Origin: an uncultured Acidobacteriota bacterium
Lineage (GTDB): Bacteria; Acidobacteriota; Vicinamibacteria; Vicinamibacterales; UBA2999
DNA length: 40,816 bases
NCBI GenBank assembly: GCA_902826515.1
Contig: CADEFD010000037.1
Location: 1 to 40,816 of the forward strand
Direction of reading: 5' to 3'
Shown: positions 39,151 through 40,816 of the stretch, in pieces
Layout of the letters: each line of letters opens with the position of its first letter
Position numbering within the stretch: position 1 is the stretch's first letter
The notes under the pieces: generated by a model
What the model saw: the letters and a program-made list of their open reading frames with translations, nothing else
Database searches by the model: none
What the model was told of the DNA's origin: nothing
Program-made: the position numbers and the translations under genes

Positions 39151-39855
39151 ATGCGGAGCATGCGGAGCGTTCACCCCTCACCACGCCGCGGATTCCTGGG
39201 AAGAGTTCTGGGCGCGGCGGCCGCGTTGACCACCGCCGGCATCGCGGGGTCGCCGCCCGCCGAAGCGCAGGCGGACACCGGCTGGATCAAGGAGGTGCCC
39301 GGCAAGGCCCGGTGCTTCTTCGACTGCCCGCAGCACCTGAACGGCGTCGGCCTGCTCCACATCCTCAACTACCTGGGCGCGTATCCGGCCGGACAGGCCG
39401 GCGTGGCGAGTTCGTTCTACGGCGTGGGACCCGCCTCGTCGCTGGCCCTCGGGTTTAATGACGCGATGTGGGCCAAGTACGCACTTGGTGAGCTGCTCGG
39501 CCTGAAGGACGCCAGCGGCAAGCCGTACACGCGGAACCTGTTTGCCAGCATGACGAAGGACGAGGCACACGTCGTGGCCGCGCGCATGGGCATCCCGCCC
39601 ACGATCGGCATGCTCGGTCAGGCGGCGCCCGCCCTTTCGATCCCGAGCCTGCAGAAGATGGGCACGAAGTTCCTCATCTGCAACAACGCTCTGGGCCTGT
39701 GGACGCTGGAACTCGAAGCGCGCGGCAAGGGCGCGGCCGCCGCGATCGACAAGGACCTCCGGGCCAACGTGTTGCCCGGGGTCACCATCATCCCGGCGAT
39801 GGTGCAGGCGATCGAGCAGGCACAGACGGCCGGGTTCAGCTACAACCGGCAATAG
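39151..39855 (+). CDS. Exported DsrE-like protein
   Basis: The ATG at 39151 has AGGAGG with 5-nt spacing. The 234-aa product carries a Tat-like signal (SPRRGFLGRVLGAAAALTTA, ending near AEAQA). The mature part resembles DsrE/DsrF-like proteins: SFYGVGPASSLALGFNDAMW, then KYALGELLGLKD and RNLF. The C-terminus has FLICNNALGLWTLELEARG and VLPGVTIIPAMVQAIEQAQT followed by AGFSY. The conserved Cys of the family lies in ICNNAL. Classical DsrE proteins carry sulfur in the cytoplasm; the exported relatives have no firmly known function. A structured leader candidate precedes it. It ends 16 nt from the convergent DUF3179 gene. Confidence 0.75.
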   Translation: MRSMRSVHPSPRRGFLGRVLGAAAALTTAGIAGSPPAEAQADTGWIKEVPGKARCFFDCPQHLNGVGLLHILNYLGAYPAGQAGVASSFYGVGPASSLALGFNDAMWAKYALGELLGLKDASGKPYTRNLFASMTKDEAHVVAARMGIPPTIGMLGQAAPALSIPSLQKMGTKFLICNNALGLWTLELEARGKGAAAAIDKDLRANVLPGVTIIPAMVQAIEQAQTAGFSYNRQ

Positions 39856-39871: not shown

Positions 39872-40816
39872 TCAGGGCCGCGCTGCCCGCGGCTGCCACG
39901 CCGCGTGGATCGTCGTGTCGGGATGGTACTCGTGCCAGTCGAACCAGTAGTCCGACAGGTGCGGCACGCGGGTCAGCCGCCGGCCGGCGAGTGGCCCCGT
40001 CACGGCGCGTCCCATGAAGTCGAACTCGGAGCCGGTGCGCTCGTCGATGAAGCGCACCGGCGACGTGTCCACCTTCCGCAGCAGCTCCACGGTCTGCTCG
40101 TCCACGCGCCGCGAGAACACCCGCACGGAATGGCCGTCATCGGCCTCGAGGATGGCGATCGGCGTGCCGGCCAGGTCGTCCAGAATCACGCGTGAGGCGG
40201 CCAGACTCTCGCGCGGATAGGCGCGGGATGCGCCGTCGATCGTCACGCCGATGACGAGGGTGCGCGGGGGCATCGGGTCGTCGCCGCGCACCGGCGTCAC
40301 GACGCGCGCCTTCGCCGTGCTGTCTTCCCACGTGGCCTTGATCTGTGAGGCGTCGCCGTCCAGCCCGAGCACGCGCGTGCCTGGATGTTCCGCACGCCAC
40401 AAGCCGAAGGTCACTTCGTCGTGCAGCACCGGCGTGAGCGCGCGGCCGGTGAGCGGCCCGGAAATCGCGCGGCCGGTGACCTGCTGCCACCACGAGCCGG
40501 TCTCCAGATCCTCCATCAGGAAGTTCTGGTTGTTGATGCCGATGAGACGGAACCGGAGCGTCCGGCCATCGAGCGCACGTTCCCACACCAGACCGGTGTG
40601 ACAGAGCGTTCAATAGGTGGCGACGATCGGCACGTCGCCGAGCGTCGCGTTCACCAGGTGGTGATAGCCGATGCGGGTGATGGGGAAGGCGAGGGCCGCG
40701 GCGGCATTCGCCACGCCGAGCACCGGCGCGTCGGCGGGCACGTCGGTGGCCTCCGCGGCGGCGACGAAGCGCGGATCGGGGAACGGCCGGAACATCCACT
40801 CGAAGTGGTTCTGGCG
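39872..40816 (-). CDS. DUF3179-domain selenoprotein (in-frame TGA read as selenocysteine), 5' end beyond the window
   Basis: One frame runs from the right edge to the TGA at 39872, interrupted only by TGA at 40612-40610. Before it the protein reads LGVANAAAALAFPITRIGYH then LVNATLGDVPIVATY; after it, TLCHTGLVWERALDGRTLRF. In DUF3179 proteins this junction is the conserved TYCxxC segment, so the TGA replaces the first Cys and gives a UxxC motif. A hairpin suitable as a SECIS follows 9 nt later. The downstream part has the family's DGASRAYPRESL, VFSRRV, DERTGSEFDFMGRAVTGPLA and YWFDWHEYHPDTTIH. If the TGA were a true stop, the C-terminal 238 residues would have no credible start. No start codon for the whole protein lies in the window. 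The family's function is unknown; UxxC suggests redox chemistry. Confidence 0.8.
40584..40600 (-). promoter_or_regulatory. Candidate bacterial SECIS hairpin
   Basis: On the minus strand CACACC-GGTCT-GGTGTG forms a perfect 6-bp stem with a 5-nt loop; a U-G wobble can extend it. It begins 9 nt after the TGA, so the loop lies 16-20 nt downstream, within the range of bacterial SECIS elements. The loop GGUCU equals the core of the E. coli fdhF SECIS loop recognised by SelB. The bulged U of the E. coli stem is not seen. The region also encodes conserved residues (HTGLVW), so coding constraint is a caveat. Confidence 0.65.

Follow-up and report, generated by a model that had tools for sequence, protein, structure and literature searches.

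An in-frame UGA probably decoded as selenocysteine in a membrane-anchored DUF3179 protein of an uncultured Acidobacteriota bacterium

Does the single TGA inside a DUF3179 gene at the end of an Acidobacteriota contig end the protein, or is it read as selenocysteine (Sec)? The window analysed here, 40,816 nucleotides long, is the entire contig C37 of an assembly of 418 contigs (5.85 Mb, 94% complete). The TGA lies on the minus strand at 40612-40610 (TCA at 40610-40612 of the plus strand), in frame inside the DUF3179 domain (PF11376). A first-pass annotation of the window had called it a probable selenocysteine codon, a view with which the sel genes of the genome, the codons of the homologues and a conserved SECIS-like hairpin agree. 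The three conditions named there as refuting it were each checked, and none of them held. On these comparisons, the reading of the UGA as selenocysteine is well supported. As a whole, the locus is very probably best explained as a membrane-anchored DUF3179 selenoprotein with a recoded UGA and selenol/thiol redox activity.

The 3' part of the gene occupies 39872..40816 (-) and comprises 314 codons when read through the TGA, which is the only internal stop. PF11376 matches residues 14-301 of the read-through, spanning both sides of the TGA (E 3.5e-60; 204 bits against a curated Pfam cut-off of 27; profile positions 9-292 of 292). The frame is open on either side of a single TGA, as first annotated. 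PF11376 is the sole Pfam match of the domain; an NCBIfam search and a PDB sequence search gave no match. The residues around the TGA are TY-U-TL-C-HTG, and the TGA takes the first position of the CxxC, flanks and position being as originally described. The codon (40610..40612, -) corresponds to residue 69 of the fragment and to about residue 169 of the full protein. A conventional gene call yields, as anticipated, a separate C-terminal ORF (39872..40588, -; 238 aa, GTG start), and the N-terminal part of the gene runs past the window end, which is the contig end. The last 20 bases of the window have one other occurrence, near the start of contig C321; the two contigs overlap by exactly 55 identical bases, and C321 supplies the gene start. 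The joined C37+C321 frame starts with MRRSVMPW and gains 100 residues (the 5' part, on C321), for a total of ~414 aa, in which three membrane helices precede a DUF3179 domain duplicated in tandem. Three hydrophobic segments precede the domain in the window gene and in most relatives checked.

Homologues carry either TGA or Cys at this codon. Among 106 aligned rows from relatives and public genomes (the collections overlap, and a few records are counted twice), TGA is present in 84 and Cys, encoded by TGC or TGT, in 22, with no other codon. The clade with the TY-U-TLCHTG motif and three membrane helices is composed of Acidobacteriota and two Gemmatimonadota records; its 76 rows in the first collection were all chosen as TGA rows. 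No Cys row of this motif was seen in that collection, and such rows were found later in family f22. A nonsense mutation, a sequencing error or a pseudogene, leaving a truncated protein, would fit a TGA that interrupts a frame in a gene at a contig end. Against this stand the occurrence of TGA at the same codon in dozens of independent genomes, purifying selection that persists downstream of the TGA (within-genus dN/dS of 0.10-0.29 both before and after it) and frozen synonymous sites right after it. The same TGA in 84 of the 106 rows excludes chance, and recurrence together with downstream constraint refutes the reading as a defect, to which we assign next to no probability.

The source genome encodes the full set of selenocysteine genes for which a search had been suggested: selA (474 bits), selB (320 bits, above the curated cut-off), selC, i.e. 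a tRNA-Sec of 64.8 bits with anticodon TCA, and selD (354 bits; G000:C45:3195-4109, L130). In the latter the frame holds one TGA, which makes SelD a probable selenoprotein in its own right. These genes also bear on a selenium-free reading, in which UGA is reassigned throughout the genome (e.g. to Trp) or read through non-specifically, and with which the continuation of the frame past the TGA is compatible. The DUF3179 gene, however, terminates with a TGA of its own (39874-39872, -), so UGA is not reassigned everywhere; conserved Trp residues are encoded by TGG, homologues have Cys and not Trp at the site, and the genome holds a tRNA-Sec with anticodon TCA alongside the complete Sec pathway. 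A selenium-free reading is extremely improbable.

A SECIS-like hairpin (40583..40601, -), composed of the stem UCACACC / GGUGUGG and the apical loop GGUCU, follows the TGA. In a test of synonymous variation over 57 unique sequences and 197 codon columns, the seven lowest columns lie downstream of the TGA at codons +1, +2 and +4 to +8; their observed/expected ratios are 0.01-0.32, against a median of 1.0 for 8-codon windows. These frozen codons encode the hairpin UCACACC-GGUCU-GGUGUGG. Across 69 sequences, 99% of the stem cells are paired, compared to 28-60% for slid controls, and two stem pairs possess double changes; with so little variation in the stem, the covariation is thin. The loop GGUCU, the 7-bp stem and an energy of -10.4 kcal/mol (first 33 nt) are as in bacterial SECIS elements, and the spacing is one nucleotide short: the loop is 15 nt from the UGA, just below the 16-37 nt that the published bacterial model gives for most elements. 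Taken by itself, the sequence has no better folding energy than its synonymous shuffles (p 0.49), and the SECIS argument therefore rests on the comparative evidence; an Rfam search of a 161-nt stretch returned chance matches only. The SECIS of E. coli formate dehydrogenase H (fdhF) is likewise located directly 3' of the Sec UGA and shares the GGUCU apical core, but its GGUCU starts 18 nt after the UGA (15 nt here), its stem sequence is different, and its host protein is unrelated to DUF3179.

The TGA form of the gene co-occurs with selB. Of 199 Acidobacteriota genomes, 32 contain a DUF3179 gene with one in-frame TGA. SelB scores above the cut-off in 31 of these 32, compared to 102 of the 167 others (Fisher p 2e-5, which is only indicative as the genomes are related). 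The one of the 32 without selB above the cut-off is a 75% complete assembly; G114 (75% complete) contains fragments only. In G003, from the genus of the window and 93% complete as an assembly, the TGA form and selA are present, but no selB exceeds the cut-off and a clear selC is absent. In family f22, five genomes that are selB-negative and have no full selA (G185 with selA matches below the cut-off only) have the same motif with TGC, in the form TYCTLCHTGLVW, and G118 of the same family combines selA, selB, TGA and an intact hairpin. The hairpin loop codon of the five Cys forms is changed from GGT to GGG in four and to GGA in the fifth, and stem codons are altered in most of them as well; the Cys form of G201 retains a stem of the same shape, so the element is degraded and not wholly lost in every Cys form. 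The five form one clade in the tree (100/96), hence one event, beside a long-branched Algoriphagus; this placement is uncertain, and the tree is compatible with either direction of the change, gain or loss of Sec.

Two reviews of prokaryotic selenoproteins (PMC9312934, PMC13188914) include DUF3179, with the motif UxxC/T, among the selenoprotein families, so the precedent given in the first-pass annotation exists; the former credits DUF3179 selenoproteins to Zhang and Gladyshev 2007 (Olavius algarvensis symbiont). The listed proteins share the Pfam family, the UxxC motif and the Sec position with the window gene, which is therefore a new member of an already listed selenoprotein family, with better decoding evidence than usual. 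This analysis adds a conserved SECIS-like element, the Cys form linked to the machinery and a confident model of two Rieske-like beta-barrels without cluster ligands. The locus provides a clean case of Sec decoding in an uncultured Acidobacteriota bacterium, with a SECIS-like element linked to selB, in a gene that standard gene callers would report as two. It further offers a structural hypothesis for a family of selenoproteins whose function has not been described since its listing in 2007.

The structure model built from a 52-sequence alignment (pLDDT 92.7, pTM 0.91) contains two homologous repeats (hhalign probability 99.7, E 3.6e-26). Repeat 1 (residues 25-150; 40367..40744, -) is predicted to be a Rieske-like beta fold that includes His52, Sec69 and Cys72, with structural matches over residues 38-140; repeat 2 (residues 182-305; 39902..40273, -) has the same predicted fold without these three residues, with structural matches over 193-296 and Z up to 10.0. 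Among the VIA matches listed for the predicted model, nearly all are Rieske-type and fall on repeat 1 or 2, with Z of 7.5-10.0 over about 80-100 residues; Foldseek gives Rieske folds a probability of 1.00, with a best E of only about 6e-3, also on the predicted model. His52 (codon 40661..40663, -; invariant in 52/52), 17 residues upstream of Sec69, and Cys72 (codon 40601..40603, -), which holds the second Cys position of the UxxC, is the only Cys of the domain and is invariant in alignment A2, are confined with Sec69 to repeat 1, and all three are invariant when Sec is counted as Cys. Asp103 is invariant too and is likely structural, since it is matched by Asp258 in repeat 2.

Both repeats thus match the folds of Rieske [2Fe-2S] proteins (PF00355) in the predicted model, whereas the cluster ligands C-x-H...C-x-x-H are absent from the DUF3179 domain, because it contains just a single Cys and a single Sec. 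Sequence similarity to PF00355 is not significant for repeat 1 and weak for repeat 2. We also considered the Rieske cluster loops as the site of the UxxC and rejected this: the alignment of repeat 2 with Rieske, carried over to repeat 1, gives another hairpin turn, and the UxxC accordingly appears in a turn other than the cluster loops, in a register that is weak (hhalign probability 6%).

From these features a mechanism can be proposed. The UGA is very probably recoded to Sec, which yields the UxxC, by the joint action of SelB, charged Sec-tRNA(Sec) and the hairpin that immediately follows it; the comparisons support well both this decoding and the genes it needs. The protein would be membrane-anchored and probably periplasm-facing: an extracytoplasmic position of the domain is suggested by the three helices and the basic residues that separate the second from the third. 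This domain duplicates in tandem what is modelled as a Rieske-like beta-barrel without iron-sulfur ligands, with the Sec and Cys of repeat 1 in a beta-hairpin turn and the invariant His upstream. The UxxC, in a domain lacking any other Cys, points to a selenenylsulfide redox couple, in which Sec would attack an oxidised substrate and Cys72 would resolve the intermediate through a selenenylsulfide. The most likely role is that of a periplasm-facing selenol/thiol oxidoreductase, for which we infer redox chemistry, orientation and substrate. More tentatively, and with somewhat less than even confidence, we suggest that a duplicated Rieske-fold scaffold lacking an Fe-S site, with a His/Sec/Cys centre in the beta-hairpin turn of one repeat, serves as an extracytoplasmic selenothiol oxidoreductase; we know of no use of the Rieske fold for such chemistry.

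Sec69, Cys72 and His52 might instead form a metal site in a selenoprotein without a redox pair, as a CxxC knuckle in the beta-hairpin. The CPLCG/CTLCG motif, placed in a tight beta-hairpin, looks like a metal-binding knuckle, and His52 is invariant. A second knuckle is lacking, however, as repeat 2 does not contain the residues, and some distant Sec forms replace the second Cys by Thr (UPLT; L149, G064) or Ala (UPLA; L153 of G102, L155 of G109), at the cost of a ligand. We regard the metal site as unlikely and favour the selenol/thiol oxidoreductase. In every Cys form seen, the CxxC is complete, whereas these three cases suggest that some Sec forms can do without the second Cys, though they are too few for a claim. 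The UxxA of G102 and G109 departs from the UxxC/T motif given by the selenoprotein reviews.

Upstream of the DUF3179 gene lies an FGE-sulfatase (SUMF1-like) gene (L003 355-1059, -), whose TGA overlaps the DUF3179 ATG as ATGA. FGE homologues are also located upstream of the DUF3179 gene in G002, G003 and G004, and none was found beside it outside the genus of the window. No neighbour is conserved across the clade, so the neighbourhood gives no pointer to the substrate. Downstream, at 39151-39855 (+) of the window, a 234-aa ORF possesses a twin-arginine-like N-terminus (RRGFLG) without a Pfam match.

A second, longer DUF3179 protein is encoded in the same genome (G000:C2:59759-60661, L032); it is a Cys form (VYCTLCGT) from a distinct clade in which all members have Cys. 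Genome G008 contains a divergent DUF3179-like gene with an in-frame TGA (TFUVVCN; L140 4879-5511, -); a relative is present in G037 (L144). A tRNA-Sec is located at L140 4270-4361, ~500 bases from this divergent gene.
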